Part shown: positions 15,801 to 56,300 of the stretch, piece after piece | Layout of the letters: every line of letters starts with the position of its first letter | Position numbering within the stretch: position 1 is the stretch's first letter | Assembly (NCBI GenBank): GCA_031002005.1 | Contig: JARYHS010008074.1 | Span: forward strand, 346,666,932 to 346,730,931 | Length of the DNA: 64,000 nt | Direction: 5' to 3' | DNA from: Vandiemenella viatica | Taxonomy: Eukaryota; Arthropoda; Insecta; Orthoptera; Morabidae | Program-made: the position numbers and the translations under genes | Notes under the pieces: generated by a model | Seen by the model: the letters and a program-made list of their open reading frames with translations, nothing else | What the model was told of the DNA's origin: nothing | The model's database searches: none

Positions 15801-16135
15801 GTATCCTACAACCATTAAGAAGGTTTCAGTTTGAAACTGTAAGGGTTGTGTTCAGAGTTATGAATGTCAAAAGAGAACATAGCACTAGTGGAATTCATAT
15901 AGGAAGTTGATGAAGCAGTTGAGAATCTACTGCCAAAGCGTTTGGGACTGGCCAAAATGTTTTTTAACGTTTTACAATTTTACAGAATATTCTACAATGT
16001 TTGAGACTGTTGGAAAATAGATTAGAAAATATTGGCAGAATGTTCAAGAAATGAAAAACATGATTCCAGATCCTTCTGGAGCATTATCAAATGTTCTATT
16101 ATCCTGTAGTGGTGGGGATACATTAGTTTTGAAGG

Positions 16136-17287: not shown

Positions 17288-17489
17288 AGTGTGAAGTGCA
17301 TGTGTCAATATAATTTGTAAATTAATTAGATTGGATCAAGGAAAAGTGAATAAATTTCAGGAAAATCTTTACACGCATTAGTGATTTGATTACAGTTAAA
17401 AAGAAAGTGTTGAGTGGAATTTTATAGTGTTAAGTAATATTAACTTTTAACATGATACCAAAATGTAAAAGAGGAGGGCATTCAGCCTG

Positions 17490-19771: not shown

Positions 19772-21413
19772 GCAAAATTATTAAGTAACTGATTTAAACA
19801 GACCATTAGGAACTATGATTCAGATATGGTAGGGATTAAATTGGAGAATGTTCTTATCTGTACAATTAAAAATAAGCTGACTAAAAAACTGAAATTGAAA
19901 TTCAATATGAATATATCATGTAGGAACTAAAAAATCTAAAACAGCATAAAGAAGCTGTTGCTCCAGATTTTTTAAAGATACCAGGATGTTACCTTATCTT
20001 AAAATGTTATTAAAATTGTGTACTTGGTTTTTCAGATGACTGGCAAAGTGCAATAGTAGTACCAGACCATAAATAGGGTTGAAAACTGCAGGCAATCAAT
20101 TTAACGTTAGTGGTAGGCAAAGTAATGGAGCGATCAATATGCAACCAAATCAGACATGTCTGTGAGGTGTGTAACTGGTTTTCTTGTCAGCAACATAGCT
20201 TTAGGTAAGGATATTCATGCAAATCTCAATTAGCAGGCTATATGCAAGATATTTCATATGAAATGGACAAGGGAGGTCAAATCTTTCAAAGGCTTTTGAC
20301 AGAGTGAGCCATAATAGTGTAATGAAGGTAAAAACTATTGGAGTTGATGAAAAGCTCATTTGCTGCGTAGAAGAATTCTTGAAAGGTAGAAAAAATGTTA
20401 GGGTAGGAAATGCAGTATCAAAAAATGGAAGTGAACATGGGAATTCCAAAGGGTAGCGTATTGGGACCACTGCTAATTGTTATTCTAATAAATAATTTTG
20501 TTGATGGATTAAGATCAGAATTTAGACTGTTTGCAGATGGCATAGTGTTATATAGTATGATCAAATTGATAGAAGATGTAAACAGCTTTGGGTGATCTGG
20601 AAAGGATATCTAGCTGGGTGAGTCAACATGGGATAAAGATAAATGTAAACAAGAGTTAGCTTATTAGGTGTACAGATAAAAAGCTAAATGTTGATTATGT
20701 TTGTAAATGGGGAATGAAATGCTTGTTGAAGACTGTAAATGTAAATACCATGACATAACATTTGGTAACAAATTCAATGGGCAGGACACATTAGGCAAGG
20801 AGTAGGAAAATGGTTCAAAATCCTTCACTTGTTAGAAAGAGCGATGAGAGGATATATCAGATAAGTAAGGGAAGTGGGATACAAAACTTTGGTCAGACCA
20901 TTGCTTGAATATGGTGGTGTAGTATGGGAAATACATTTTGGGTATCAAATATAGGAGTTGGAGAGGGTGTAAAGAAGGGCTGCTATATTTGCCTTTTAAA
21001 ATTTCCATAGAACACAATTAGTAACTAATATGATAAAAGAGCTGGAATGGATTTATTGCAAGACAGAAGGAGGGCAAAGAGAGTTATGGTAGTGAACAAG
21101 ATGTACAATGGTTATGCATGAAAAGATATTGGTGGGAGAATTAAGAGAGGTGCTTGGAAGGGAAAAGATAACCATGACCACAAGCAGGTACTCAATTTCT
21201 TGCATAAGGGTGTGTGAAGATTTTCTTTTTTGTGGAATTACCAAGAGAAATGATGAAAAATTACAAAAAAAAAAACACTGAAAAACAAGTTCAAATTAGT
21301 AGAGGGCAAAAGTAGGTTCGAAAAGGAAAGGAGAAAATGGGTGTGTAGGGAAATTGTTACCGGAGGGTGTGCTCCATCACAATTAAATTGAAATAAATTA
21401 AATTAAAAATTGT
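19772..21413 (+). mobile_element. CR1-like LINE copy, RT part and 3' end
   Basis: Continuation of the copy at 17490. It keeps decayed RT blocks (GIPKGSVLGPLL near 20440, FRLFADGIVLY near 20520) and the 3' terminus gtgtagggaaattgttaccg, ending in a repeated attaaattaaa tail. The FADD catalytic pair reads FADG here, and there are many frameshifts, so it is inactive. Confidence 0.85.
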
Positions 21414-22492
21414 AAGAAGGAAACAGAAAGAACAGTTAAAAATGAAACAGATGAGGAGTGAGAAGCATATTTAGTTTCACAATGGAAGAGAACGAATAGA
21501 CTGAGGAAAAATTCACAGATGAACAACAAAAATATATTAGAAAAGGGCATCAAGTGAGGCAGAATGAATCAAGTATGTCAGTTCTTTGGAGTCAAGACAT
21601 TCAATAGAGAAACACTATGAATGTGCTGCATAAATGGAAAAATTTGATTAGCATCAATGGTATTGCCTCTGTCATAATTATTCACATGACTAGAGAAACT
21701 TCTGAGCAATATTGTGGTCTTCAGCACTGGCACAGTTAGAGCATGCAGAATATTCCTATTTATCATCAGTGGTTATTTAAACCAACCAACTACAAGGATA
21801 TCTGCTACAATTATATTAGATTAGTAAACTGTAAACTTGTAATCACAGATTTTTAGACATGTGATATATTTCAAATTTTACTTTGTCCTAGGTTTCAGTA
21901 GTGTTATGTACTTACTCAAAGAGGGAAGAAAAAAGTCAAGAACTTAAACCTAATACTACAGTGAATTATAAGAGAATTGCTCCTAATTTATATATTTTTA
22001 AGAGAATGGTATCTTATAACAACAAAATTTATTAGATATTAAACAGTAAGAAACTATGAAACCTATTGCTTACATTTATAGAATCAATGTGGTAAGAAAC
22101 TAGAGAGGTTTCACTAGAGCCTTTAAAAGAGATTAATTATTAACACTATTTGCCCCCTCAAAACAGTTTGTGCACATTTATTGATGAGATATGTTATGTA
22201 CCATAGTTAAACTAATTGTGATATATAAATGTATTCAATTTTTTCAGATATACTGTATTTCTCTTGCATTTTTATTAACTCTAAATTATTTTCCTCTCAT
22301 GCAAATGATGTAAAGAATGTATGATATTTATGATGAAGGTTCTATAGTACAAATAAATGACACAAACAGAATAATGTGGCAATGTAGTATATGTTTCCCT
22401 CATAGCAAAAGAAGAAGTATTTTCAATTCAAAATTGTTTAAAAAGCAGCATATGTTACCATGATCAGAACACTATTAACTCTAATACAGTAC
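21414..22492. other. AT-rich sequence, nothing recognised
   Basis: On the minus strand this is the intron downstream of host exon 22493-22622. The next C2B exon was looked for here and not found. Confidence 0.5.
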
Positions 22493-33816: not shown

Positions 33817-36759
33817 CTACATTTGCCCTCTACAAATTTTAACTTTAAATTCTTTTAACGTTTTCGGTAGGTTATTCATCATTCCCCTTGGTAACTCATT
33901 CCAATCCCTGACACCCTTACCTAAAAAAGAAAATCTTCCCACACCCTTGTGCCTGAAATCGAGTGCCAGCTTGTGGTCATGGTCATCTTTTCCCTTCCAT
34001 GAACTACTTTTCATACCTACTGCAATATCTTTCCATGCCTCATCGCCAGTATACGCCCTGTACACTCCCATTACCCTCCTCATCCTCCTCCTGTCTTGCA
34101 ATGAATCCCATTCCAGCTCCTTTATCATATCTGTCACTGATTGCATTCTGCGATAATTTCCAGAAACAAATCTAGCAGCCCTTCTTTGCACCTTCTCCAA
34201 CTCCTGTATTTGATACTCAAAATGTGGGTCCCATACTACACTACCATATTCGAGCAATGGTCTGACCAAAGTTTTGTAACCCAATTCCTTTACTTCTCTC
34301 GTGCATCCCCTCATCACTCTCTCCAACAAGTGCAGAATTTTGAAACCTTTTCCTACCACCTGTCCAATGTGTCCTGCCCAGTTAAGCTTGTTATCAAATG
34401 TAATGCCAAGATATTTACATTTCAAGTCTTCAGCAAGCAATTCTTTCCCCACCTTATATTCATAATTAACCTTTTGTTTTTTATTTGTGTATCTAATTAG
34501 CTGACTCTTCTTTGCATTTATCTTCATCCCATGTTTACCAACCCAACTAGATATCCTGTCCAGATCACCCTGCAACTGTTTACAGTCCTCTATCGTTTTG
34601 ATCCTTTTATACAGCATTATGTCATCTGCAAACAATCTAATTTCAGATAGTAAACAATCAACACAATTATTCATTAGAATAATGAATAGCAATGGTCCCA
34701 ATACGCTACCCTGCGGCACTCCCATTTTTACTTCCACTTCCTTTGATACCGCATTTCCCACCCTAACTTTCTGTTTTCTACCTTTTAAAAATTCTTCTAC
34801 CCAGCAAATCACTTTCTCATCCACTCCAATAGTTTTTACCTTATTTACTACCATTTTGTGGCTTACTCTGTCAAACGCCTTTGAAAGATCTAGTGCTACA
34901 CTATCAATTTGGCCTCCCTTGTCCATTTCATCTGAAATATCTTGCATATATCCCACCAACTGAGATTCGCATGAATATCCTTGCCTGAACCCATGTTGCC
35001 TACTTGAAAACCACTTACGTTCCTCACATACATTTCTGATGTGGTTGCATATCAATCTTTCCATTAATTTACCTACCACTGAAGTCAAACTGATTGGCCT
35101 GTAATTTTCGACTCTATTTCTCACCCCTCCTTTATGTACCGGTACTACTATCGCACTTTTCCAGTCTTGTGGTAAGCAGCAAGTATCCAGACTCAATTTA
35201 AATAATATTTCAAGATAAGGTACAATGTCACATCCGACTATCTTTAAGATATCTGTAGTAATATTATCTGCACCAGCCCCCTTATGTTTTTTCAGCTTGC
35301 TTATTTCCTTCATGATTTCTTCAGGATGAATTTCAAATTTTTTAGTATCTTCATTTCTAATCGTATTGTTAAGCTCGTTCTCCGAATTAGACCTTCCCGT
35401 TTCTGATTCATTGTCCCTAATGCTCTCACTAAACCAGTTACTTAAAATCTCTGCCTTTTTCAAATCCTCAGTAACTACTTCTCCATCCTTATCTATGAGC
35501 ATCTCTACACCCTCCCTTCCCCTCAGTTTCCTGATATAGCCATAGAAATTTCTAGATGCATCAGTCAGTGGTCCTCCTGCACTGACAATACTCTTCATAA
35601 ACCCATCTTTAGCCACTTTCTTTGCTGTTATTAAGTCCTTGTTTAGTTGTTTCAAATATTCCCTACTACCCTGCTGTCTCTTAACTCTGTTATGTTCTCT
35701 TCGTACCAACCTCTTTAACCTCCTCACTTCCCTATTATAGTACACAGGTTCTCTACTTCTCTTTATATTCTGCTTTGGAATGAATTTTTCTTCCCCCTTT
35801 CTTATTATCTCCTTGAACTCTTCCCACCTTGACTCTACTGTACTTGTGCCTTCCTTCCATTTGCTGAAACGTTCTCTGAAATATCTCTTCAAATTTGAAA
35901 TCTGTGCCTTTTTATAATTGTACCTATTTCCCCCTTCAGTTTTGGCTGCTGGTTCACTGAATCCTCTAATATCCATCAGAACTGCGTCATGATCACTTAT
36001 TCCTTCCGTTACTTGACACCCCACGAGGTTATCATCGGGCTTTATTAGGAATATATCCAAAATATTTTGTCCCCTAGTGTTTTGCTCTACCACTTGTGTA
36101 AATCCTCCTTCCCTTATTAAGGTATTTGCAAATCTTTGTTCCCGTGTGTTATTAATCTTATTTCCTTCCCAGTTTACACCTGGTAAATTTAAATCCCCAC
36201 CAATAATGACCATTCTATTCTCACCTCTGAAATCTGAGTATGAATTTAATTTCTCCCCAAGAGCCTCATCTTCATCTGTCATTCTTCCACTGCGGTAAGC
36301 AGCCAACACCCTGATTTTTTCTTTTTTATTACCCCAGAAATCTACCCCAAGTAACTCATGGTCTTGATCTATGAATGCCAGTGAACTGTGGTAGTTTTTG
36401 CTAACTAGTATGAAGACTCCTCCACCAATTGCTCCTCTATCTCTGCGGTACACTCTGTAACCATCAGGAAAAACCTCACTGTCTAGTACGTCTTCTTTTA
36501 ACCAACTCTCTACCCCAATTATTATTTGTGGTTCGTGTATCTCTATTAAGTTTGCAAATTCGATTACTTTGTTCATTATACTTCTACAGTTTACCATTAA
36601 CACCCTTATTACCGGCTTTATATTTTCAGCATTTATCTCCTCTTTCCCAGATTTACCCCAGCCAGTTATTGTTTCAGCAACTTCATTTATTTCTTTAACA
36701 TCTATGATCTTTCTCGTCGTGGATCTACAATCAGTATCACTTTGATCATCTATTTCCAT
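33817..36759 (-). CDS. CR1-like LINE ORF2: endonuclease-reverse transcriptase, intact frame
   Basis: A continuous 980-codon frame starting at ATG 36757-36759, 17 bases after the ORF1 stop. The APE-type endonuclease occupies about residues 50-265: NCRS (57-60), GVESW (82-86), GGDLNLPGVNW (187-197) and catalytic SDHDAV (255-260). The reverse transcriptase spans about 520-800: SAIVVPVHKGG (535-545), ENYRPISLTS (551-560), DLSKAFD (624-630), PQGSVLGPL (682-690) and the catalytic FADD (710-713). The protein nicks target DNA and copies the LINE RNA at the nick (target-primed reverse transcription). No key residue is missing, so this copy may have been active recently. ORF1 of the same copy has a frameshift. 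Confidence 0.92.
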   Translation of the reverse strand: MEIDDQSDTDCRSTTRKIIDVKEINEVAETITGWGKSGKEEINAENIKPVIRVLMVNCRSIMNKVIEFANLIEIHEPQIIIGVESWLKEDVLDSEVFPDGYRVYRRDRGAIGGGVFILVSKNYHSSLAFIDQDHELLGVDFWGNKKEKIRVLAAYRSGRMTDEDEALGEKLNSYSDFRGENRMVIIGGDLNLPGVNWEGNKINNTREQRFANTLIREGGFTQVVEQNTRGQNILDIFLIKPDDNLVGCQVTEGISDHDAVLMDIRGFSEPAAKTEGGNRYNYKKAQISNLKRYFRERFSKWKEGTSTVESRWEEFKEIIRKGEEKFIPKQNIKRSREPVYYNREVRRLKRLVRREHNRVKRQQGSREYLKQLNKDLITAKKVAKDGFMKSIVSAGGPLTDASRNFYGYIRKLRGREGVEMLIDKDGEVVTEDLKKAEILSNWFSESIRDNESETGRSNSENELNNTIRNEDTKKFEIHPEEIMKEISKLKKHKGAGADNITTDILKIVGCDIVPYLEILFKLSLDTCCLPQDWKSAIVVPVHKGGVRNRVENYRPISLTSVVGKLMERLICNHIRNVCEERKWFSSRQHGFRQGYSCESQLVGYMQDISDEMDKGGQIDSVALDLSKAFDRVSHKMVVNKVKTIGVDEKVICWVEEFLKGRKQKVRVGNAVSKEVEVKMGVPQGSVLGPLLFIILMNNCVDCLLSEIRLFADDIMLYKRIKTIEDCKQLQGDLDRISSWVGKHGMKINAKKSQLIRYTNKKQKVNYEYKVGKELLAEDLKCKYLGITFDNKLNWAGHIGQVVGKGFKILHLLERVMRGCTREVKELGYKTLVRPLLEYGSVVWDPHFEYQIQELEKVQRRAARFVSGNYRRMQSVTDMIKELEWDSLQDRRRMRRVMGVYRAYTGDEAWKDIAVGMKSSSWKGKDDHDHKLALDFRHKGVGRFSFLGKGVRDWNELPRGMMNNLPKTLKEFKVKICRGQM

Positions 36760-36776
36760 CCCTTCACCAGCAGCCC

Positions 36777-37959
36777 CTAACCTAAAAAAGGCACAGTCCT
36801 GACCCCATCATCACTGGAAATGGGCTCCCTCACTGCTTTAGCTAACAACTCAGAAAGTACTCCCTTCCCCCTTCTATTTAGGTGTAGGCCATGCCTAGTG
36901 AAACCCCACCTACCTATGGTGTTTACAGGCACAACCCCCAACACAGAACTAATGCCTTTCCCAAGTAGCACTTCCGTTTCCACATTTACACGCCTCACAG
37001 CGGAGTTCAATTGTGGCCGGTCATGGCGTCTTAGGACCTGCATGAGCTCCACCCTGGTATGCTGTGCCTCCTTCACCACCTTCCTCAGGTCACTCTCTAT
37101 ACTATAACTCGCGTTTCTATCAATACTATTCCCCGCCCCTCCCACTATCACTACTCTATCGTCCTTAGTGAAACTCCTACAAAGTGAACCTATATCCTCT
37201 ATTACCTGACCTAATGTTGCACTAGGTTTGAAAAAACTTGTGACCTGGTAACCTGTACCTAACTGATCCTGCAGAAGAGGGCCTACACCTCTCCCATGGC
37301 TACTACCTAGCAGCAGAACCCTTTTCTTCCTATTCTTGCCTTGCACGTCCTTATTCCTAAAGGCCTGCTGCATCTTACCTACTCCTACATCTACATGAGG
37401 CTCTTCTCCTCCTGACTCTGGCAACAGGTCAAACCTATTTTTCCCCACAATTACTGAAGTGTCTGGCTTCTTCATCCTGTTAACTATATTTCTCCTACGA
37501 CCTGTTACCAGCTCCCACCCATCCTTCTCAACTTCCTCCAACCCACTATCTCTACTTTCTGCCTCTACAGCATTGAGCCTCGACAAGCTCAGCCCCCACA
37601 GGCTGTGCCTGTGCAGTCTGAGCCTCCACAGGCCGGACTCCACAGGTTGAGCCTCCACAGGCTGAGCCCCCACAGGCTGAACCTCCACAGGCTGAGGCCA
37701 CCACAGGCCACGCCTGCAGAGTCTGAGCCTCCACAGGACGAGCCTCAAGAACCCTGATCCTTTCACGCAACTCCCTAATCGTTTCGCCCATCTCCCAAAT
37801 CCTATCATCCCTAAGACAAAGTGAACAAAACCATGGGAGAGCCTCATTTATTTCCCCCGTTTCCTCTTCCCCACATGCCCAGTGAAACCACTTCTTACAC
37901 CAACTACAACCCATCCCCTTCGCAACGTACCTACGGCAGGCGCCACAGTTTCCAGTCAT
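36777..37959 (-). pseudogene. CR1-like LINE ORF1: PHD finger plus SGNH esterase, frameshifted in a repeat
   Basis: Starts MTGNCGACRRYVAKGMGC at 37959. Cys5, Cys8, Cys18, Cys21, His26, Cys29, Cys45 and Cys48 form a C4HC3 PHD-type finger. A short coiled coil (IRELRERIRVLEARPV) leads into a run of imperfect PVEAQ pentapeptides encoded by a 15-bp repeat around 37560-37735. Within that run the frame must shift at least once. The second frame, open to 36777, carries an SGNH-hydrolase-like domain: KRVLLLGSSHGRG, DDRVVIVGGAGNS and GLHLNRRGKGVLSELL. This PHD-esterase layout is known for CR1 ORF1, a nucleic-acid- and membrane-associated partner of ORF2. Confidence 0.85.
37560..37735. repeat. 15-bp minisatellite inside LINE ORF1
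   Basis: Imperfect repeats of cacaggctgagcctc on the plus strand encode Pro-Val-Glu-Ala-Gln on the minus strand. Indels here explain the ORF1 frameshift. Confidence 0.8.
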
Positions 37960-41819: not shown

Positions 41820-42517
41820 TGTAACGTACCATTAGGATACATTCAATATGGGTGTGATCTTTGTGCAAAAGGAAAAGAATGTATAAAACTCTTTTAGTGT
41901 ACTCTGGAGGGGGGGGGGGGGGGGAACAGAGCGATCGTCATGTGACCTAGAGATGAGGATGGATAAATTATCGGCAAGACTAATTTATTGAAGTATCTAC
42001 GTTCGAAGATTGTTAATATATGCAAGACTGTTCTGATATGATTTAGCAACTGAATTGAAGACTGGCACAAGAAACAGTATGATTTTAAATGGATTGTTCA
42101 TTCGTGTATGTAGATACGTTTTTATTTTATTTTCATATATACATACAGGGTGAGTCAAAAGGCCTTGGACACCTTCATAAGTTGGAAGAGTGAAGGGAAA
42201 ACCCATCATCATTTCCCTTCACTCTTCCAACTTATGAAGGTGTCCAAGAACTTTTAACTCGCCCTGTATATAATCCTGAGTTGACCTCAGACTTTTTGCT
42301 CTGGATCTAAGACAGTAATTTAAGTTGTTTATGTTAAAGATTGTCATTGAAATCTTACTTACTCAGTATAGTAGATCTGTGATTTGTTAATGTGTATGTC
42401 TTTTACTTATGTGATACACAAAGTAACCTTGCTCCTTCACTTATAATTAACTAGATTGAAATATAATTGACTAATATTAAATTTTAAAGAATAAAGAAGG
42501 TACAATTAACTGGTACA
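41820..42517 (+). repeat. 5' LTR of element C (contains MITE)
   Basis: Matches 44606-45180 throughout except for the MITE at 42146-42266 and the length of the poly-G run near 41908. Confidence 0.85.
42146..42266. mobile_element. mariner-type foldback MITE in an LTR
   Basis: A nearly perfect palindrome of 121 bp: cagggtgagtcaaaaggcc reads inward from the left, its ~55-bp arm is mirrored on the right, and the right end reads ccctg. TA flanks both sides (42144-42145 and 42267-42268). The partner LTR lacks it, which gives the empty site. The cagggtg terminus resembles that of the mariner at 52018. Confidence 0.88.
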
Positions 42518-42628
42518 ATTCATTTGGCGCTAAACAACATTGAGCACGAAAAGTTAATTATTTAAAACTATATTTGCAGTGAACATCAAATTTTCGTATT
42601 TTTCCTGGCACTATGATTCTTTTCAGTA

Positions 42629-43534
42629 GTGCTTAAAGGAGTGAGAGCAGTGTGTGCCTATGTATTATACATACAATATGCATATGAACTTAGCATAATG
42701 AATATTATTTTTCTGGTCAGAACAAATTTTCAATTACATCAGTGGGTCTCAAATTTAAATCATTTTAATTTAACGGGAAAAAAATTAACACTTTCAATGA
42801 TCAATGACGAAATAGTCATGAGTTTAAACAATCATTTTGTCATGTTATTACAGCAAATGTCTGTACATATGTCTTCTCAGATTAATTATGTGAAAACAGA
42901 GATTAATTCTGAATTATCCTCTATGAAGGAAAGCATCAATGGCAGGTTTCGATCTATGCGATCATGTATCGATTGCTTGGAAAAGGCGCAGAATGGTAGA
43001 AGTGCCAAATTAAATGAATCATGTCTGAATTTTGGGACCAAATGGATGCTAAATTGGAAGATGTGCAGGCAAGCAACTGCGAGGAAACAAGAACAAATTG
43101 CAAACACATACACAATGAACAAAATCAGTTGGGAGGCCAGAACAACGTATACGGAAGGAGCAATTTTGAGTTTGTGATTTGAAGCTGCAAAAAACTTGTC
43201 TGAAGATCTTCATGCAGTAGAAATAAAAAATAAAAACCATTTTCAATATGTTGGGAATAAATTAGGTGAAATGGATGTATCTGAGAAGTTAATGCAGGAT
43301 TTTATGGAAGGACACAAAACAAACCTGGTTCCGCAATTGGAAGTGATAGCTAGAAGACTTACTGATAATGGGGTAAAGGTGAGTGCAGTTAAATTCATAT
43401 TACAATCACAAGATGTGAAACCCCTACAGAAGCTCAAAATAAAAATTGTCTCAAAAACCAATTACCTGAAGAACAAAAAAGTTGAAAAGCTAAAGTTCAG
43501 CAAAACAGGTACTGGAGAGTATCAACGGGTTTAG
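42629..43534 (+). pseudogene. element C coding region, coiled-coil Gag-like
   Basis: Two frames, about 42697-43177 (first ATG inside) and 43196-43534, carry heptad-rich sequence: QMSVHMSSQINYVKTEINSE and LHAVEIKNKNHFQYVGNKLG. The order, directly after the primer-binding site, and the coiled coil match the N-terminal half of Gag in element B, but no capsid-type block could be identified. It is disrupted by a stop and shift near 43178. Function beyond Gag-like is not assigned. Confidence 0.4.
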
Positions 43535-44334
43535 AAATTATATTAAAAGTACAAAATATGAAAAAGGCATTACTGGTGACAAGGTATTTATCAATACAGA
43601 AGATATTGCCTCAAGTGCAATGGTCATAGTGACAAATCAATTGGAATAAGTAAAATTTTACTAAGCAATGAATATGAGTGTTTTAGAATTTAAAATGATA
43701 AAAAATAAAGATGAATTAAACAATGCAACAATATGAAAATAATGGAAATGTTAGCTTAGAGAAGCAGACTAGTAGTTCTTTGAAAATCAAAGAGGAAGAT
43801 GCCGAAGAAAGCAGTGATAATAAGAAAAGTTGTTTGTGCTTATTTAAAAGTAGACAACATTTACCATGAACAGTTAGGAATATGGAGGACTCATCTTGTG
43901 TAGTGATTGCTGATGAGTGTGGAGGCAAGGTTATTTGAATAATAAAAGGGAAAATGAATGTTAAGGTTAATTAAACATATACAGAAATTGTGTCAATTAT
44001 TATTGCCAATAATTATTCATAAAGAACCTTTCTGAAACAACAAAGAAATGATAAATGTAAAATAGTTTAATACTATATAATTTTCAAGGTCCAAATACCT
44101 TTTATTTGCAAGTAATGTCAGAATTTTGTTTATTACTGTCATAATCGGTGGTAAAGCGTATTGGTTTATGAAGTATAAGAATTTTGGAGTAGAATATTCT
44201 GGAGTTTGGTGTATTAAATTGTGTAAATGTTTATTCAATTATATAAGGGATAAGTACTTGATATTGTACACATAAGTGCATATGCTTATTATATTTAATG
44301 TGGATTCCATGTCATTATAAATTATAATGTAAGT

Positions 44335-44484
44335 TTCACTCAGAAATTCCGGGCTAAAAGCCCGTGGTCGATAGGTAAAACTATCCCCTAACATTTCGTC
44401 TTCAGTTGCGGAAGACATCATCGAAGACTAAGCGGCAACTTAGCCTATCGACCATGGCCTTTTAGCCCGGAAATTCTGAGTGAA
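44335..44484. repeat. 150-bp inverted-repeat element (MITE-like)
   Basis: Arms ttcactcagaaattccgggc on the left and its complement, ending gaaattctgagtgaa, on the right are about 40 bp each. They also share the tcgataggtaaaa / cctatcgacca blocks. It lies within the 3' interior of element C. The superfamily and target duplication were not determined. Confidence 0.75.
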
Positions 44485-44605
44485 GTTAATGCTAGCCGTG
44501 AAAGCCTACATTGTATGATATAATGCAAGTATTTGCATTAAGGAAAGGGAACGGGAATTGTCAAGACCCACTCCATGTCTTGACAACTGTAAAGACTGAG
44601 GGCTA

Positions 44606-45180
44606 TGTAATGTACCATTAGGATACATTCCATATGGGTGTGATCTTTGTGCAAAAGAAAAGAATGTATAAAACTCTTTTAGTGTACTCTGGTGGGGGGG
44701 AGGGGGGGGGGGAGAGTGAGCATCACATGACCTACAGGGATAAGTATGGATAAACTATCGGCAAAACTAATTCATTGAAGTATCTACGTTCGAAGATTGT
44801 TGATATATGCAAGACTGTTCTGAAATGATTTAGCAACTGAATTGAAGACTGACACAAGCAACAGTATGATTTTAAATGGATTGTTACTTTGTGTGTTTTT
44901 TATTTTTGGTTTTTTTTTATATATATATATATATAATCCTGACTCGACCTGAGACTTTATGCTCTGCAGCTAAGATAGTAATTTAAGTTGTTTATGTTAA
45001 AGATTGTCATTGAAATCTTACTGAATCAGTGTAATAGATCTATGACAAGTTAATGTGTATGTCTTTTACTTATGTGATACACAAAGTAATCTCCCTCCTT
45101 CACTTATAATTAAGTAGATTGAAATATAATTCACTAATATTAAATTTTAAAGAATAAAGAAGGTACAATTAACCAGTACA
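44606..45180 (+). repeat. 3' LTR of element C
   Basis: 575 bp, tgtaatgtacc...accagtaca. Carries its own variable poly-G run near 44693-44711 and a TA-dinucleotide run where the other LTR holds the MITE. Confidence 0.85.
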
Positions 45181-45503
45181 CTTTATACCAAGTAATGAAA
45201 GTTTATTAGTTCATTTAACAAGTCATAGTTATTTAAAAGCGAAGTGGATATATATTTCTTCATGGTGTGTTTTGGATTGTTGATAACATTTGCAGGTAAT
45301 CAATATATATTATAAAAGTAAGTGTACAATGTGCATGCCGCTAAAACTTAAAAACGAGTACTGGTACGATTAAGGGAGTTATATGTTGTGGTAGCCCTCT
45401 ATCCCTTATCAATGGACAAGGTTCCCATTTTTACCTGAACGGTGTGCAGTTGAAGATATAAGGCCTAGAAGTTTTACCCTCTAAAAATTTCTAGAACAGT
45501 CCA

Positions 45504-45641
45504 GAATATTCAAGAGCATTTCACAATATTCCAGAATGTTCCGGGATGTTCCTGAACATTCCAGAATATCCCGGATCATCACAGATCATTGTGGAACATT
45601 CCAAAATACTCTCGAATGTTATGGAATGTTCTGGAACATTT
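45504..45641. promoter_or_regulatory. cluster of heat-shock-element-like motifs
   Basis: Five perfect GAAnnTTC inverted pairs lie at 45504-45511, 45534-45541, 45554-45561, 45594-45601 and 45624-45631, with one-mismatch versions at 45564, 45614 and 45634. Heat-shock factor trimers bind alternating nGAAn units. Here units alternate in phase over stretches such as 45531-45571 and 45621-45641. Binding is inferred from motif pattern only. Confidence 0.6.
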
Positions 45642-45685
45642 TGGACCATTTGAAGCCTTTTTTTGTATGGGTGGGATGGTTGGGG

Positions 45686-45694
45686 TATATAAAG
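45686..45694 (+). promoter_or_regulatory. TATA-box-like motif downstream of the HSE cluster
   Basis: TATATAAAG lies about 45 bp after the last HSE-like motif, the spacing and order of a heat-shock promoter. No coding region follows within the element, so a transcript would be noncoding or read into flanking DNA. Confidence 0.5.
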
Positions 45695-46183
45695 CAAGAT
45701 CCATTGTGGGTTCGAATGTCACTTTCTTATCAGAGATGAAGATAAAATCTGAAAAAGGGAAAATTCCAAAGCAGTGCAGTGAGTGAATAAAAACCAGCAT
45801 TGAAGATGGTCCCCATTTTTACCTGAAGGGTATGCTGTTCAAGATATAAGGGTTGAACAGTGAAGTGTGAGTAGTCAAGAGTGATATAGTGACTGAATAT
45901 AAATCGAAAATAAAGTTTGAAAAGTGTGTAAAGTGTACTTAGTCTCAGGGGCACCGGCTTTCAGAAAACCTCATGAGCACTCATACTCATTTGATGGCAT
46001 TAAAAAAAAAAAAAATTGCGACATGTGTGAATCAATTTTGACAGACTTTCATTGGATGGTTACTGATTTGGCAGGTATTAACATAGACTGCTTTTTATCC
46101 TGAAAATATTTAATGTTTCACACCAAAAAAAAAAATCTTCCAAATTCTTGACAAACATGAACAAAGTTGCGGTCACCAGCTAG

Positions 46184-48297
46184 TCTTACATAATTGTGAA
46201 AATCCAATTATAAGCGAACAGATAGGCAAAGTAGAACAGAAATATTTTGCATTTTATAAATTCTATTCCAGATCAAAAACATACTTATTCTCACCAAAAC
46301 TGATTCAGCATTTTTAACGTGTCTGAGTAATAAACTTACAGAGTTTCAAGTTTATAACAATAGAGGAAAGATAATTAATTATTGTCATACTGCTACTTAA
46401 ATTCATAATTTTATTATTGCATTTGATTTTCATCTGCAAGGATTGGCATCGTGATAGAAGTCTCAGGTACAGTTAGTAATGAATATAGACGTGCAGATGA
46501 GAAGGAAGAATAGATCGGTAAAACATGTTAGATTGAAGAATAAAGAACGGATACTTATCATAATAATATAAAACTGAAACCATTATAGTATTACTAGTGA
46601 TCGGCCAGCGGTCAAAATTCAACCGTAATTCATTAAGTTGTTTAGTTTCTTTCATGAAAGAGTAATAATCTAGTAATTCTCTGCATTACCTATAAAATTA
46701 AAACGATACACTCCACGCATGACTGTATGCTTAATTTGAACTTCTAATCTAACCATAGCAAATGATGAAATGGTTCATTTGAATTTAAAATATTCATTTT
46801 GACTTAAGGCCGGAAAACTGCTTTAGCTTATGAAACATGAAGTAAATGCAGTCCTTTCACCGGAAGTGACTTCTGAATCGAAATGTTTTTCATTGCGAAA
46901 CCTGCATTGTAAATTCGAAACTGTAAAAATTTGTGGAATGACATTTAGTGCGCATTTAAATGTAACTATCAAAATTATTTCGTCATTTTGTGTATTCGCT
47001 ATTTAAATTTGATCTATTATCATTTTGAATTTCACGCAAATAAGTAATTCCTTATTTCCTGTCTCTCTCTAATGAAATTACTGAAATTAAAAAATCAAAA
47101 GACACTTAACAAAAGTTTAACATTTTAAATAATCAAATAAGCATATAGTATCTGGCAGAATCGCTACATTCCTTTTTGAAGTATTCCTTTTATAACTTCA
47201 AACTTTGATCTCAAATTTATCCAAGTCTTTCATTTTACCAAAGACCACAGAGTGTCCCAATGCGGGGAATTCAGAAGAACGTTGACTCTGATCCTATTTC
47301 ATGCACACACACATGTTCGCAAATTAATTTTTTATTTTAATAATCTATTTGTAACATGTATTAACTATGCTTATTATATTTTTTTTACAGCTGACTAAGA
47401 TCACAGACATCGGCAGATTCACTTACCACTAATATAAACATTAACTATGCCAAATCTTACACTTTTCAGTGTGCGATTCATTTCTTCAAGCTCCTCCATT
47501 TGTGCATGGCACTTATTCTTAAAAATAGATCCGAAATTTTCGCTTGGCATATTAATATATAGGTTTGTAAAATTTATTATATATAATTTTAGCTCTCTGT
47601 ATTTCTATAAGTTCCTCCGTTTGCCCAATATTCTGGCTGCTAGCTGCGCTATCTACCAGCCCTCGAAATGTTGCTTCTTGCTTCTATATAAGTTCAGAGA
47701 TTAATTTCGACTGTTTTGTTTCACCAAAGACTACAAAGTACGCCATTTATCAGCTAAAAGGCCGCTAGCTGCAACATCTACCAGCCATCAGGTGAAACAA
47801 CGCCCAGAACTGGCGGCATCTGAGCAAACTACGTAGGCGATCAAGTGTTTTATTTTACTTCATTTAATGAATTTGTAACGCATATTATATATAGATTTTA
47901 GCTTCCTTCACTTCTTTTCCATATAATCTTTAACTATGCCAAATCTCACACTTCCCTGTGCACGCAATATTGTTAAAAATGTATCATAAGTTTTCGCTTA
48001 GCATATTAATATATAGATTAATAGTGTGTTACATAATTTTTACTAGCAGGAGATATTTATTAATACCTACTTAATGTATACAATTGTATTATGAATTGCA
48101 TGATCAACTAATCAAAATTACTCAATCTTTTTAAGAAGGAGTATTTAATAATCTATATAATTATATCAATTTTTTTACAATATGAACCTATTTTCTTGAA
48201 TTACAGCTCTGTTTATAAATATATCAGTGATTTCTTTGAGGTGCAAATCATCTGTTATTTTTCAGTTTATGCACGTGATCAATGAATCTTTGCTGAG
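46184..48297. other. intronic sequence with a short dispersed direct repeat
   Basis: Mostly AT-rich. A block starting tatgccaaatct-acact, with gcttggcatattaatatatag, occurs at about 47445-47570 and again at 47932-48030. A gctagctgcgctatctaccagcc block recurs at 47633 and 47762. No coding was recognised. Confidence 0.5.
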
Positions 48298-48985
48298 CCA
48301 TATAGTAGGAGAGCTAGTAAAGGTTTTTGGGTAGGCACCATGAAAATTTTTTTTGTAATGTCTAAGTACAAAATCAAAGACCCGACTGATGGGATTGGGA
48401 GCATAATCAAAATATTAACTTTTGAAAATTTTATTTTCTTTCAAAATTGTATTTAATAAATATTGAATAAATATATTTGAGGCATGCAGAATAATATTTA
48501 CAACTAGAAATAATATTTTTTAAAAGTCAGTTTGGTAGGACTTTTTACCTGCCAGGTGATCGGGAATGTTACACCAGAAAGCAAGTGAGCTGTATATCGG
48601 CGGCCGGCCGCTTATTCGCGCTCAGGTATAACATTCCCAATCACCTGTCAGGTAAAAAGTCACACAAAAATAACCTGTCTTCAAAAAAAAAAAAAAAAAT
48701 CCTTGGTGTAACTATTATTCTGTGCAAACCTCAGCATGCCTCAAATATGTTTTTTCGATATTTATGAAACACAATTTTGAAAGAAAATTTTGAAAAGTTA
48801 ACAATTCAGTTATGCCCCCATTCCCATTATTCAGGTCTTCAAATTTGTTCTGAGACATTACAAAAGAAGTTCTAAACAAATTTTCACGGTGCCTCAAATA
48901 CCTACAAAGTTCTAAACAAATTTTCACGGTGCCTCAAATACCTACCTAAAAATGTATACTATCTCTCCGACTATAGTAGCCTACC
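48298..48985. repeat. long inverted repeat (foldback element)
   Basis: The left arm, about 48298-48495 (tatagtaggagagctagtaa onward to gaggcatgcag), is complementary to the right arm, about 48727-48982 (gcatgcctcaaatatg to ctccgactatagta), with indels. The centre holds a second palindrome at 48539-48661. The right arm also carries a 39-bp tandem duplication at about 48867-48945. Confidence 0.75.
48539..48661. mobile_element. 123-bp palindromic MITE nested in the inverted repeat
   Basis: gactttttacctgccaggtg at the left is mirrored by cacctgtcaggtaaaaagtc at the right. The arms extend through gggaatgttacac / ggtataacattccc. The centre is GC-rich (cggcggccggccgc). No coding. Confidence 0.75.
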
Positions 48986-50639
48986 CCATAAATAAGTTTT
49001 TATTCTCCGTAATGCTGAAAATGATCGTGTTCGGCGATAAGTGTTGATAATGAAAAGGTTAAAACTTCTCTTTTTTAACAATTTTATGACTTCAGGTTCA
49101 GGTATCAAATCTTTAGTATATATTCTCAATGACAAGTTATAAAAGACACAATGTCTTCCACGTTATTCAGTCTGACATTTGTTGTTCATGCTATATCTAA
49201 AATCAAGTTATGATGAAGAACCAAATGATCCACGTCAAAGAGTCATCTCTTTCACATAACTGGTGCTTGTGTAATTTTGCCACTGAGAATTTGTTGCATG
49301 TTACTCAAATGTGTCAAAGCATTTTTAAGTAAAGCGAGAAATCTTCTCTAAAGTTATATATAGCAATGATCCAGAATTTATATCAGGAATTTGATAGTAA
49401 AAAGAGATTCAAAACATTGAAGACTTTTTAAAAACAGTTTTGGTTTCACGCTGGTATCATCTTTCTGATTTTTGTGTCATTTAAAAAACATAACAGTGCA
49501 CTGTATTTGTCTAGAATAGTTTTCTAGGAAGATAAGCGACAAACTTTTCATACCTTTCTAAAGCTTTGTTCCATGATGAAGAAACACTTTGAGTGAATGC
49601 GTTGATGGACTAACCTCTTGATGATTTTTTTGGTGCAGAAACGCGATTAGACATGGTTTCTTTACAAATTAAAACGGTTCCTCTATATCTCCATTATCAT
49701 CTGCTACTAATTTTTAAAACTTTGCCTTTTCTTCTCTTCTAATGAATTTAGAGAAATAACATTTTCTGGTTGGATTTGCTGAGCTGCACTAAGCTGAGCT
49801 ACAAGTACTTCAGGTTTGGTACCTTATAATTTCGAACGACAAATTTATCCCTAACAATTTCCCGAAATAGACATGGTAACAATATGCGTGGCATGATCTC
49901 AAAGCGCATGCTTTTTACCAGCTTGACTTACCTAATGAGACAGAGCTATGAGCGCGAAAGCGCTGGCGGTGCGGCAGACGGGTGAGGTGCCGCGGACGGC
50001 GGGCTAGTACTTGCACGCAGGGTGAGTTGTTAGGCTTGCTTCTGTGCATACTCTTCGCAAAAGCCAACCAACATTTACTTACTACACATTAGATGGTGTT
50101 ATGGGTGTCATAACATAGTGTTCATATTATCCTTGGACGCGCAGTCGCACACGCTCGCATCGTAAACAAGTGCGATCTTTTGAGACATCTTGCCTTGCCA
50201 CGCGGCGTTGGAGGTAGGTAACATTGGTTCCGCTCAAAGTCGGATACTGATTAGTTTTGATGCCTATGCTCATGTATTCTCCACACCCACTGTATACCTC
50301 TCGTGGATGCTGGAGCCCCCGAGAACCCACAGAGTCGGCGCCCCTGCTTAGTCTAATTATTAATAAAAATTTGGTTGGATTTATATTTTATACAATTCTC
50401 AAACTTAAAAGAGGAGGAGATCTAGCCAGTTCTGAAGCAAACAAAAAGAACAGTGAAAAAAATGAAACAGCCAAAGAGTGCAAGGAATGTTTACGTTCCC
50501 CACGATCAAGAATGAGCACCATGAGAAGGAGAGAATCAAGAACAACGAAATGAACAAATAAAATAATCCAGAACTGTGACACAATCTTATAATTAAAGAC
50601 TGCAAACACATTCACCCATGAAAATAGCACCCTACGAGA
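48986..50639. other. intronic sequence; GC-rich patch at 49930-50330
   Basis: The patch contains several CG-rich runs (gcgcgaaagcgctggcggtg, gccgcggacggcgg, cggcgggctagtac). No protein, RNA gene or clear terminal repeat was recognised. It may be the leader of the Helitron that follows or a fragment of another element. Confidence 0.4.
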
Positions 50640-51621
50640 AGCACAGATGAGGACAAATAAACAGTACAACCCAACAAATGAAGCATTCTACTATGACCTG
50701 ACAAAAGAATATGACAAACACGTCGTAACCAATAAAATGGATAACATCTGCCAATTTTGTAATATGAAAATATTCAGTGGAGAAAAAACCATGGAAAATG
50801 CTATTGCCTCCACTGGAAGCACCTACATTACATGGCTGGGTAAACTCCAGAATCAAAACACTTTCTTCAAAATATAAAAGCATACAATGCCTGTTTCCAA
50901 ATGACTTCTTTTGGTGTCACTTTGATCAACACTAGCAGAGTTGAAATCGATTATGTTTTTTCCATCCAAGGACAAATCTATCACAGAATGGAATCATTAC
51001 TACCACTACACAATGAATACCATAAATTTCTGCAATTCCATCAGAAATCTAAATTGTTTGCATGTACCAGGATGCCATTACACTGCCTTCGATTGAAAAT
51101 TTTATCTCCGTTCATACTATTCAGAAATCTGAAATCACCAAACCTATGTAATGGAACAAGGATGATCATCAAACAGTTATCGAATAACATCATCGAAGCC
51201 GAACTTATGACTGCAAAGGTAAAGGACACATAGCATTTATCCGCACAATACGATTGATCTTTACTGAACTGCTATTCCAATATAAAAGACTGCAATTTCC
51301 AATCAAATTAGCCTATAGTTTTACTGTTAACAAAGCACAAGGACAAACTTTAAAACATTATGGCATCAACCTCAAAGACTCCTGTTTCTCTCATGGTCAA
51401 CTATACGTAGCGTGTCCTCTAGTAGGAAATTCGAAAACTTGGTACATATATACCCCGGATAACAAAATGAAAAATGTTTCTTATAAACAAATATTGTAAA
51501 TAGTTAGAATATGTTTTCAATAAAAAACTTTTATCTCTTGTATTTTAAAATTTATCATTTTACTCCAGCTACCACACAATCTCATATCAACTCCCTGAAT
51601 GAAGCCGGGTACCCCAGCTAG
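50640..51621 (+). mobile_element. Helitron remnant with 3' terminus
   Basis: Protein fragments of a Rep/helicase polyprotein are followed by the 3' end gaagccgggtaccccagCTAG|T at 51618-51621. A gggtaccc palindrome just upstream could form the short hairpin usual near Helitron ends. The copy lacks most of the Rep and helicase core. The left boundary is not defined. Confidence 0.75.
50647..51496 (+). pseudogene. Helitron Rep-helicase polyprotein fragments
   Basis: Three pieces in different frames: 50647-50874 with NICQFCNMKIFSGEKTMENA, the Cys-containing N-terminal region; 50901-51230, containing EIDYVFSIQGQIYHRMESLL, the Helitron-like N region, joined to the late helicase block ILSPFILFRNLKSPNLCNGTR; and 51254-51496 with LAYSFTVNKAQGQTLKHYGI and SHGQLYVACPLVGN, the final PIF1-type helicase motifs. 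The TINKSQGQS-like and LYVA-SRV-like motifs are diagnostic of the Helitron helicase C-terminus. The Rep HUH motif and Walker A are absent, so the copy is internally deleted. Confidence 0.8.
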
Positions 51622-52017
51622 TTTATTATAAATTCGTGGACCAAGGCAGCTTGGGTATCTTTGTCCTAGTAGAGTGTTCCGGTAAGGGATGTATGCTTCA
51701 TCTCTTTTTTGTATCCTACTATTTAAGTGTGATAGGTCACTATCATTGAACACTTTTATATTGGGCATGTATGTAAATGATTGTTGTTTGTATAAATAGC
51801 TGAGGGACATTGTGCAACATGTTTTTTTTTTTGTACAGCTAACAGGCCAGAAAAGTGTATGGCTTTATACACATTGGTTTCAGAATGCAATTTTTGCGTT
51901 TGTTGACCTGAGCCATATGTGATTCAAGTATTCCTCCACAACTGTTTATTGCTATTGAGACACTTCCAAGATCACCATCAAAACCAGAATCCAAATCTCT
52001 TATGATAAAACACAATA

Positions 52018-53365
52018 CAGGGTGTTTCAAAAAGGACTTTACAATTCATATAAATTTTATGAAACAAGGTACAGAGCTGGTTTTGGTGTTGTTTTAAAGG
52101 AAAACACTTCAAGTTTTGACTTGCGTAGTCCGCTAGTGCCTAATCACGCCGCAAAAGTGCTAGCGGCAGTTACGTTAAAGATGGCTGCCTTCACTGGACC
52201 CGAGCATGCTAGCTGTGTGATTTGGTTTGAAGAATTGAAGTCTGTGACAACAGTTCAGCGTAATTTTCGTACCAAGTATGCTAAACATCCTCCTAGTAGG
52301 CCTACAATTTATGAGTGGCATAGATGTTTTGTAGAAACAGGGTGCTCAGTAAAACATAAAAAATCCTCAGGTCGTCAAAGCACATCTGACGAGGTCATTG
52401 AGCAAGTGAGAAAAAGTTTTGTCAACAGCCCTACGAAATCGACCCGGCGTGCATCTCGTGAGCTGCAAGTCCCACATATAACAGTTTGGCGTGTGTTGAG
52501 AAAACGTTTGAATTTGAAACCATACTGATATTTGCTTTTACAAGCAATTAAAAACACTAATAAGATTGCACATTGGAACTTCTGTGTGGATATGTTAAAT
52601 CGAGTGGATGATGATGAACATTTCTTGGACAACATAATCTTTTCTGACGAGTCAACTTTTCACTTAAGTGGCAAGGTTAATACACATAACTGTAGGATTT
52701 GCGGCAGTGAAAATCCACCTGAAACATTGCAACATGTTCGTGATAGCCCTAAAGTGAACGTTTTTTGTGAGTTGAGCAAGAGGAAACTGTACGGCCCCTT
52801 TTTTTTCCAAGAGAGAACCATCAACAAGATAGTGTACCTTGATATGTTGCAACAATTTTTGATACCACAGATCGATGAGGATGACCGAGAACGAAATGTT
52901 TTCTTTATGCAAGATGGTTCACCACCACACTATCTGACTGATGTCCGGAATTTCTCAATGACCGCTTTCCAGGTCAATGGATTGGCCGTGATGCACCAAT
53001 TGTATGCCCCCCCCCCTCTCCCCTTCACCAGACCTGACACTGCTAGATTTTTTCTTCTGGGGTTTCATAAAAGATATGGTGTACGTACCTCCTTTGCCGG
53101 CCACTCTACCTGAACTTAGAGCTAGAATTTACGCCGCTGCTGAGCAAGTTACACCTGAAATGCTAGTGCGAGTCTGGGAAGAAATCCACTATTAATGGGA
53201 TGTCTGCAGAATAACCAACAGAAGCCACATAGAACATCTTTAGTTTAAGGTAAAAAAAACTTGAAGTGCTTTCCTTTAAAACAACACCAAAACCAGCTCT
53301 GTACCTTGTTTCATAAAATTTATATGAATTTTCAAATTTTGTAAAGTCCTTCTTGAAACACCCTG
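52018..53365 (+). mobile_element. mariner-superfamily transposon with ~100-bp terminal inverted repeats
   Basis: Ends cagggtgtttcaaaaaggac and, inverted, cagggtgtttcaagaaggac. Similarity of the arms continues for about 100 bp (52018-52120 and 53256-53365), including gctggttttggtgttgtttt. Left flank TA (52016-52017); right flank CA, probably a mutated TA. A single transposase gene with three lesions lies inside. Confidence 0.88.
52181..53195 (+). pseudogene. mariner-superfamily transposase, nearly intact
   Basis: Starts at ATG 52181 with an HTH segment of the DUF4817 type (FTGPEHASCVIWFEELKSVT, TIYEWHRCFVETG), then KSSGRQSTSDEVIEQVRKSF and a second HTH ending WRVLRKRLNLKPY. A TGA at 52526-52528 interrupts the frame, which then continues in phase into the catalytic domain: FSDESTF (first Asp, near 52646), FMQDGSPPHY (second Asp, near 52912) and, after two single-base shifts near 52955 and in the C-run at about 53009, SPDLTLLDFFFWGFIKDMVY (third acidic residue). 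The C-terminus ends VRVWEEIHY. All three catalytic residues are kept. Only the stop and the shifts prevent expression. Confidence 0.88.
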
Positions 53366-56300
53366 CATATGGACTCCAAAAGTATAAACCTAAGGTCACT
53401 TATGACCAAATATGGCACTAACACACAAGTTAAACACTTTAAGCAGGTACTTAGGGGAAGTTATTAGGAATACTGGAAATTAGAAAGATGCACGCAAAAA
53501 CCCATGCAGAAAAGCTGCTTAAAGCATATTATTGTTATTATTATTAATATTATTGCAGCTATATCAATCCTTATTTCAGGATGTAGCCTATTTAAGTATA
53601 ATGAGCTATATATTAGAATTTAATTCTACACAGTTTTGTTGTAGTTCTTTCCAGGCTGATCCATCTTGAGCCACCCTCTTCCAGTTCACGCTGTCAGGTA
53701 TCTTATAAATTTTGTAACTGCTTGACAAAATTTTATTCTCAGAACTCTGAGTTAGATTGGATAGTATTGTATTTTATTTCTTAAGTCAGTTTCTATGTTA
53801 ATTTAAGCAGAAAAGCAGATTTTTACAGTTGTTGGAGATAGAATTTTGAATTGCATCAGTTTTAAGCATTCACCCGGAATAATATTTCGAAAGTTTGTAT
53901 CTGAATTATTTTTTTTCGGCTAAACTATTTAAGTTAAAATTTTTTTTTAATAACTAAAGTTGACATTTGTTACAAGACCTAGCAATTTGTAAAATTTCAG
54001 AGAGATAGGATTATTTTTGTTGTCAAGGTCAAAATTGGATGATGAAATCTTTCTGACATGAGATTTGGTATCTGATTAGCCTTCCAGATGCTACCCATGT
54101 GAATGCGGAAACGAGCACTTTCCAACGGTTTGTGAGTACCAGAACTTTCCTTGTTCGCAGTAGCAGATAGCTCAGTCAGTCGTCCATAAACTGTGAGCGC
54201 ACAAAATGTAAGAGCAGTCTGTCAGGAAACACGAACCTGACAACACATAGCGTAGTAGGACTGTAAGTTTCATATCAAGCACTACTTTGCAAGAGTTTTA
54301 TTTTGGCATAATGTAGGTTCGTGTATTTAAGTTTTATTACAATGTAGCAGTGAAGGAGTATTACGCCCTGTGGGGCCTCGGGACTGCTTATGTGTCGGTC
54401 GTTTACAAACTAATGTAATATTACAAGCATGTAGCGAACTTTTACAGACTTCCAAGTGTGATCAATTATACTGTGAACTACGGGATGTGGTTTGGCTCGA
54501 GTTGGTTAATCGAACTTGCAAACTCTTCTTCTGTGACTTTGTCTGATGCCGGTCCAGTTTATGACTTGGAAACACCTTTCAAGAATATAGTAATTTATCA
54601 CAACAACTGACTAGCGAACATTATTTACCTATACCGTTCCTTAGCTTGAAGTGAAAATGAAGCTAAGTGGTGACATTTTCATTATTATAAAGCAATAGCT
54701 AGACAGATCCTTGGATACATGCGGTTTAAGTTGAGACAAAGTGTTTTGCCTCATCCCAAGGCAAAGCAAGTGACTTAAAATGCCTGTAACTCAACGTTAT
54801 ACAATTAGGAATATTTCCTATAAGAATACACACCACAATACTGCCATTGTCTGGGGAACAATGTGAATGATGGAGACATCATAACTAACCATCAAAGATC
54901 GAAAAAATGGAAAGAGAGATTTACACAAAAATATTCAGTCCTAAGGTTAAGATGGTATCTGGATGTGCAAAAGCTCAGGAGAGCTGTATTTACTGACTGA
55001 GTGATTCACAAATGAAATTCAACGGACATACAATATGAATGGACGAGTCACGCCTAATCAAGAGAATCATCCACATCATCAATACCCCTGCCAGCTTGCT
55101 GGCTTGTAGAAACACAAAAGGATCTTGTAGAGTACATGTATAGACAGATAATCACTTCACCTAAGTTTGTGCCTAAGATCCCAACAGCAAGAAATCTGAA
55201 ACTCAGAAATGAATGGACACAAGAGAGACATGAAGCCCGGAGCAAAAGGATAAGGAGGTTTTGGGAAGATAAAAAATGAATGATTCCACTCACTCCTTAG
55301 TGATATTAATGATGAAATAAATAACAAATAAAGAAAAATAACTGCAACGTAGGGTGCCATAACCATAAAATTCGGAATTTTGGTCTATCTGTCTGTATTT
55401 TCACACATCATGCCAATGCTAATTGATTAATTTTAATGAAACTATACAAGGTAATAACCTTTGGGTCAGGATATAGAATACTTTTTTTATCCCAATAAGT
55501 TAAAAAGCTGCTGATGATACAGTCCAAAACCGTAAGTTTGGAAAGCTTTGTTGATATATGTATGAGTCAGGATAGGAAAATCAACCACCACTTACCTAAG
55601 ATGATGGTTGTGTGGCACAAAAACATAGAACAAACAAAAACACAAATGACATCTAGAAATATTTGGGTTTTAGTTCTTTTGTTTACTAGAGAACACTGTG
55701 GAGGGTGGATGTTGTGTGAGACTGCCTCATAGAGCAATATATGAACGAAACTTTTCATATGGATAGCTTATAGCATCAGTTAACAATGTAACTTATACTT
55801 TATATCTTCATCAGTAACATACCATGTTCATAATCCAAAATCATTAATTTTTTAATCTTCGTGTCTGCATGCATCAAGTAAAAACTAATTAATAGATTTC
55901 AGCAAAACTGCACATAGTGATATTTTATGTCATTAGTTAACATGCAGCATACTTTTTATTGAGTTTATTACAATATTTAATCCATGATACAAAGGCCAAA
56001 AAAGTAAATTTTGAAATTTTTATATGCATGTGCACTGAACAAGTAAAAATGATCCATTTCAAGTGGTAGCTTACTTACATCACATTAGTGATAGCTTATG
56101 TTCAGTACCGGATTAGCCATGTAGCATGAGTTAGCAATTGATATGGCCCCTGTGACTTCTAGAGAACCTCCCCATCATGTCAGATGTGCAATCTTTTTTA
56201 TTTTATTTTTTAGCTCTACTACTGACCCCCATGGCAAAAATCAAGAGCCCCTTCCTTACATTTGCTACAAACCACATGGTGTTTTAATCTGGCCATGCTT

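Follow-up and report, generated by a model that had tools for sequence, protein, structure and literature searches.

The window, i.e., the whole 64-kb stretch of Vandiemenella viatica DNA analyzed here, contains a phased array of heat-shock elements (HSEs) that lies in the 5' leader of a Helitron and is followed by a TATA box and an Inr-like sequence (Table 1). Seventeen of the 34 modules in the array are perfect, and 33 of the 34 have at least two of the three bases of the alternating GAA/TTC pattern. The 30-module score of the array was 75 of 90, compared to a maximum of 47 across 100 random 64-kb sequences generated by a first-order Markov model with the dinucleotide frequencies of the window, and the next-best score elsewhere in the window was 50. 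Perfect GAAnnTTC dyads were located at 45504, 45534, 45554, 45594 and 45624, and one more was present at 45759. The cluster of GAAnnTTC motifs reported in the first-pass annotation is thus real and far above chance. Across the window as a whole, the motif showed no enrichment (31 occurrences vs 24.2 expected, with 10 of 100 shuffles reaching 31), and the exceptional feature is phased clustering rather than the abundance of GAAnnTTC. No host gene was identified in the 64-kb window.

Table 1. Features of the Helitron copy and its leader in the window
Feature	Position	Strand	Remarks
Helitron copy, family A	45300-51621	+	6,322 bp with the nested insert; both ends also present in other copies
Helitron 5' leader with candidate promoter module	45300-45943	+	Common left boundary; joins sequence like that from 50347 onward in other copies
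54-nt direct repeat, upstream copy	45410-45463	+	
Phased HSE array	45484-45653	+	34 consecutive five-base modules alternating GAA/TTC
TATA box TATATAAAG	45686-45694	+	32 bases 3' of the array; TATAAA or TATATAA in 33 of 37 distinct copies
Inr-like TCACTT	45719-45724	+	Predicted transcription start near 45721
54-nt direct repeat, downstream copy	45798-45851	+	
Nested hAT-like TIR element	45946-50346		4,401 bp; CAGGGGC ends; 8-bp target duplication
Rep-helicase N-terminal remnant, in pieces	50398-50874	+	KRGGDLASS... to KMDNICQFCN motif; translations; same-strand homologous coding in other copies
Rep-helicase remnant, N-terminal piece fused to Pif1 2B domain	50844-51230	+	Matches Helraiser 7lcc_A; Pfam Pif1_2B_dom 8.2e-09
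Helicase C-terminal remnant	51188-51496	+	Translation; tblastn to other copies
Helitron 3' end GAAGCCGGGTACCCCAGCTAG	51603-51621	+	Hairpin AGCCGGG-TAC-CCCAGCT running into CTAG, then T

The TATA-type box that had been proposed downstream of the motif cluster is present at the distance given in Table 1. The two copies of the 54-nt direct repeat were 83% identical and 388 bp apart, one on either side of the candidate promoter. The "~390-bp repeat unit" described earlier therefore holds as the spacing of this direct repeat, but not as a tandem array, since the repeat flanks the promoter. Searches of the locus against Rfam, a phage collection and viral contigs returned nothing informative.

Helitrons start with TC after an A, and end with a short 3' hairpin and CTRR, followed by T. 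The family A element begins with TCAATATATATTATAAAAG and is preceded by A, giving an A/TC junction, and its 3' end shows the hairpin, CTAG and the following T. As read, these are Helitron ends, and together with the Rep-helicase remnants they bear out the earlier designation of a Helitron-like element. A second transposon is nested in this copy. It has CAGGG-type TIRs, and an identical 8-bp duplication of the target, CTTAGTCT, borders it on either side (45938-45945 and 50347-50354), a combination that we take to be the signature of a hAT-like transposon. The insert was also found in L038, a near-duplicate of the window copy, and the insertion site was unbroken in 12 other copies compared. In other copies, sequence corresponding to the leader continues directly into that corresponding to 50347-51621. 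The hAT-like insert separates the leader from the Rep-helicase remnant, and thus the link between promoter and transposase is hidden in the window copy.

The fused Rep-helicase piece matched residues 176-238 and 1336-1387 of Helraiser (PDB 7lcc_A; 2.8e-17), two distant stretches, indicating a large internal deletion in the window copy. Because of this coding deletion and of the insert that splits the promoter from the remnant, the window copy, as it reads, cannot make a transposase, and would at most start a transcript running into the hAT-like insert.

We searched the genome (3.72 Gb in 8,965 contigs) for further copies using positions 45419-45852 as the query. (TTAGG)6 gave 616 overlapping matches in this genome and the reversed pattern gave 0; TTAGG repeats form the telomeres of most insects and of numerous other arthropods. 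The search returned 281 candidates, and the best 40 that were scored, the window copy among them, showed 77-100% identity over most of the query. Promoters were compared in 37 distinct copies, including the window copy and leaving out the near-duplicates L002, L008 and L012. All 37, drawn from the best-scoring 40 of 281 with a query that contained the array, had at least ten three-module HSEs with no more than one mismatch. The mean number of such elements was 16.3 per copy, compared to 0.06 in shuffled letters, and at least one perfect HSE was present in 36 copies. TCACTT was present in 32 of the 37 copies and TCANTY in 34. With the array in every distinct copy and the TATA box in 33, the heat-shock-type promoter that the first-pass annotation had recognized in a Helitron is a feature of the family. 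Copies elsewhere in the genome without the motif cluster had been named as a possible objection, and none was seen among the leaders read whole.

Inside L031, L037 and L040, we found three partial duplicates of the leader that lack the array. These second leader copies all start at the counterpart of window position 45787 and comprise the second half of the leader, and they are probably the result of a recurrent tandem duplication of ~0.4 kb of the 5' leader. A search with an array-free query (45655-45943) gave 320 candidates, 40 of which were scored, and 11 of these 40 were copies already read. Ten of the 11, including the window copy, carry the array, and the eleventh, L002, matched the whole array-bearing query at 91%. 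Within the 54-nt repeat, a 22-base stretch matched 621 genome sites with no more than three mismatches, compared to two sites for the reversed control. Since this stretch occurs twice per leader, the number suggests some hundreds of family A copies. The near-duplicate L002 (346553517) lies ~160 kb from the window copy L001 (G000 C4537:346712350) on the other strand. The two are 95% identical over 2.8 kb and have the hAT-like insert in common, and the pair is likely a segmental duplication.

The family has a common left boundary. In 16 of the 19 other loci, similarity to the window copy began within six bases of a single position (window 45296-45301), and the DNA further left was unrelated. The exceptions were L002, a duplicate that matched further out, L011, which started 13 bases earlier, and L017, which started 28 bases later. 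The ends were then surveyed in 10-kb stretches at 20 loci, among them the near-duplicates L027 and L028 as well as L038, which nearly duplicates the window copy. The 32-nt 5' end (up to four mismatches) was present in 15 of the 20 loci, preceded by A in 14 and by T in L021, and L030 begins with TA instead of TC; L024 and L040, among the five loci without this end, were fetched from inside the element. A 3' end like that of the window copy (up to five mismatches) was found in 12 loci, with T as the next base in 11, and CCAG replaces CTAG in L024. Both ends were present in 10 of the 20 loci.

Coding similarity to Rep-helicase was observed on the promoter strand in 16 of the 20 loci, and none was seen in the stretches read for L029, L035, L037 and L039. 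One piece in L024 is a PIF1 helicase (Pfam 7.7e-35; Helraiser 3e-18), a second matched Helraiser residues 758-823 (4.9e-4), and one further piece had no match against solved structures. Three of the ten pieces scanned had a Pfam match, including PIF1 and Pif1_2B, and none of the ten matched the Rep nuclease domain in Pfam.

Genome-wide, 35 places contain the perfect six-module pattern (three successive GAAnnTTC), compared to two for the reversed control pattern; it is its own complement, and each place is thus listed twice. Sixteen of the 35 places were fetched (L061-L076), and three more were assigned by coordinates. By similarity, four of the 16 belong to family B (L061, L062, L063 and L073), eight to family C (L064, L065, L067, L068, L070, L071, L072 and L074), and two are weakly like family C (L069 and L075), whereas L066 and L076 were assigned to no family. 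The three sites placed by coordinates, one inside L057 and two beside the 22-mer, belong to family A. Of the 19 sites examined among the 35, 15 thus fall firmly and two weakly in families A, B and C; the sites were chosen for perfect HSEs, and their array quality is therefore not an unbiased sample.

One copy of family C was read at length (L064 with L077) and, on that copy, the family is a Helitron. Its HSE array is accompanied by TATATATAG at C8:378196372, and the Rep-helicase starts 167 bp further with ATG and then MSKCKRGGYLASGESKRRKRNSEEM, the counterpart of KRGGDLASSEANKKNSEKNE in the window. The N-terminal Rep-helicase pieces of family C (23-32 residues) showed 38-53% identity to family A. 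The match of L064 to the family A leader of the window was confined to the array, and none of eight further sites, with arrays masked, matched this leader. Since L064 aligns to the family A leader only within the array, the promoter type was retained as the surrounding sequence changed. A promoter type common to leaders that have otherwise diverged is the strongest comparative evidence here for function.

Both further families also occur in the window. A decayed family C Helitron is found at 15817-16143, 17298-17496 and 21414-21711, with an HSE cluster of its own that includes a perfect HSE at 16038, and TATATAT near 16137, and is split by insertions that include non-LTR retrotransposon sequence at about 17494-21407. 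Family B is represented by a non-autonomous Helitron-type repeat at 465-1378, which has tandem repeats of roughly 190 bp and a 3' end at 1378 that reads GTCGTGGGCACCAGCTAG followed by T. The family B relatives (L061, L062, L063 and L073) carry a short HSE cluster, which would lie roughly 230 bp upstream of the 3' end. The hAT-like insert contains, at 46023-46183, a 3' fragment of family B that ends in GCGGTCACCAGCTAG, again followed by T. A short Helitron at 45300-46183 was considered and rejected, as the CTAG at 46183 is part of this fragment.

Both ends, the array, the TATA box and transposase remnants on the same strand are thus observed in the window copy, and they recur in other copies. 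The motif cluster is part of the 5' leader in a Helitron family with many copies, and the array lies just upstream of the TATA box. We consider it probable that the element uses this module as a heat-inducible promoter for its own Rep-helicase transposase, since the array is family-wide, the TATA box is kept and one copy of a second, divergent Helitron family has these parts in the same order. The element would thus probably be activated by heat stress. Following heat or proteotoxic stress, trimers of host HSF would bind the 34-module array, and RNA polymerase II is predicted to start near the Inr-like TCACTT at 45721. Transcription would then continue across the leader into the gene for the Rep-helicase, so that the element could transpose by the rolling-circle mode.

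The family A copies that were read are old, judged from their divergence from the majority base (mean 9.4%, range 5.9-12.8%), and no intact Rep-helicase was seen among them. The number of perfect modules in one phase was 22 in the majority sequence and 10 to 22 in single copies, where indels also reduce the count; these numbers would be compatible with decay from a better ancestral array. Conservation within the array was lowest at the G of the GAA modules (pairwise identity 0.765 across copies), the base that is usually held to be most important to HSF. Divergence was 6.8% at contact columns compared to 11.1% at spacers. However, without CpG/TpG/CpA columns, the values were 6.4% and 5.8%, with only eight spacer columns remaining, and the difference was gone. 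These values thus do not demonstrate that the inserted arrays came under selection, in keeping with the copies being dead.

These observations bear on whether the array might be a functionless, decayed 10-bp minisatellite that is carried along in the Helitron. Such an origin would agree with the lag-10 unit-to-unit identity of 64% within the array, with the variation in array length across the same stretch (176-210 bases between copies) and with the missing proof of post-insertion selection. However, in-register copies of the array were 84% alike between loci, similar to most of the flanks, indicating that the unevenness of the array predates the spread of the family and that no homogenization took place. 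Furthermore, the GAA/TTC positions of the window copy carry more information than the spacers (means of 1.18 vs 0.66 bits, with the C of TTC low at 0.55 bits), and the order of array, TATA box and transposase was found again in a divergent family. We therefore regard a functionless minisatellite as improbable.

The array could also act in rolling-circle replication instead of transcription, either as iterons bound by the Rep-helicase or by forming a 5'-end hairpin on unwinding. Its distance from the 5' end of the Helitron is about 185-355 bp, its decamer is palindromic and its strand folds strongly (z -6.3; best axis 74% complementary). In addition, family B, which is related in its 3' end, has its short HSE cluster near that end. 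However, the array unit is the HSF consensus, with CA, TG and TA as the commonest spacers between TTC and GAA, and the array adjoins the TATA box and the Inr-like site. A Rep-specific site would also be expected to change with its protein, whereas the kind of decamer is kept in family C despite the low identity of its Rep-helicase pieces. A role in replication is thus quite unlikely. Helitrons capture host DNA and the layout is like that of a host hsp promoter, but the earlier suggestion that a Helitron captured the promoter of a host heat-shock gene and spread it to host genes is very improbable, as the array is family-wide and hence not a single-copy capture, has a fixed place in the leader ahead of the Rep-helicase gene and in its orientation, and is found in the same layout in the divergent second family; an ancient capture may nonetheless have been its first origin.

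A promoter of the Helitron's own transposase can be compared with several known systems. Canonical animal hsp promoters contain an HSE cluster, a TATA box and a start site in that order. The order in the family A leader is identical, with at least three in-phase nGAAn modules near the TATA box and a predicted start site. However, the modules are far more numerous here, and a transposase rather than a chaperone lies downstream. To our knowledge, Helraiser, the bat Helitron, has no heat-shock array. The Rep-helicase pieces matched Helraiser (PDB 7lcc) best among solved structures, and the 3' hairpin with CTAG is like the Helraiser end, whereas the coding regions of family A are broken.

The closest parallel comes from Caenorhabditis, whose Helitrons carry clustered HSEs bound by HSF-1 (Garrigues et al. 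2019, PMC6927752). That survey describes 14 HSEs upstream of F33H12.6, the Rep-helicase gene of C. elegans Helitron1_CE, and a 21-fold rise on heat shock. Clustered, overlapping HSEs upstream of a Rep-helicase gene were likewise found here (array in 37 of 37 copies; same-strand coding in 16 of 20 loci), and as in Caenorhabditis, many decayed copies scatter HSEs over the genome (PMC6927752). Unlike the Caenorhabditis elements as portrayed there, those described here reside in a host with TTAGG arrays and have a single phased array of 34 modules coupled to a TATA box and an Inr-like site. The cross-species motif printed in the survey, NGAANNTCCNNGGAN (PMC6927752), matched one of the 37 family A copies, whereas the usual GAAnnTTCnnGAA matched 36. 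ONSEN/COPIA78 of Arabidopsis is reported to be another heat-stress-activated transposon (PMC3907296, PMC5059998), as family A is predicted to be, but it is a plant LTR retrotransposon and not a Helitron.

Among the genomes scanned in the 2019 survey, the association of HSEs with Helitrons was found only in Caenorhabditis, and its authors state that the association may be restricted to that genus (PMC6927752). A literature search of titles and abstract openings gave no report of an HSE-bearing Helitron outside Caenorhabditis, and a sea-anemone preprint (PMC13104882) cites the nematode work. Family A is thus a counter-example to a Caenorhabditis-only association, with a heat response that is so far predicted from sequence. 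With likely hundreds of copies, family A and the divergent second family extend HSE-loaded Helitrons beyond Caenorhabditis. It becomes testable whether HSF control was won by Helitrons once or many times and whether heat waves release them, and such copies could place nearby host genes under heat control. HSF control of the transposase might even be a basic trait, long kept or repeatedly won, of a Helitron lineage spanning nematodes and arthropods, with stress-triggered parasites seeding a large part of the strongest genomic HSF sites in both groups, a broader proposal that we offer tentatively and hold to be somewhat doubtful.

Three other readings of the locus were dropped. The module does not belong to the neighboring LTR retrotransposon, which stops ~110 bp before the Helitron start. 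A solo-LTR model yielded a single TG...CA pair and its 6-bp duplication (45278/46051), but was abandoned, as 20 loci gave the true 5' end. The Helitron remnant at 50.3-51.6 kb was initially taken for a separate element 5 kb off, but other copies showed it to be the other half.

The window contains several further transposable elements. The one named match to a retrotransposon protein of the window was from a moth, at 28% identity. The LTR retrotransposon occupies 41820-45186, with LTRs at 41820-42523 and 44606-45186 that are 87-91% identical. Its open frames (42629-43177 and 43178-43531) had no Pfam match. A small inverted-repeat element is inserted in its 5' LTR at 42146-42266. A non-LTR retrotransposon is located at 33817-37847 on the minus strand, with a 980-aa open reading frame containing endonuclease and reverse transcriptase (Pfam) and an adjoining 356-aa open reading frame. 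Finally, a transposase remnant with HTH matches lies at 52015-53368 between inverted repeats at 52015-52117 and 53256-53368, and is presumably of the mariner type.
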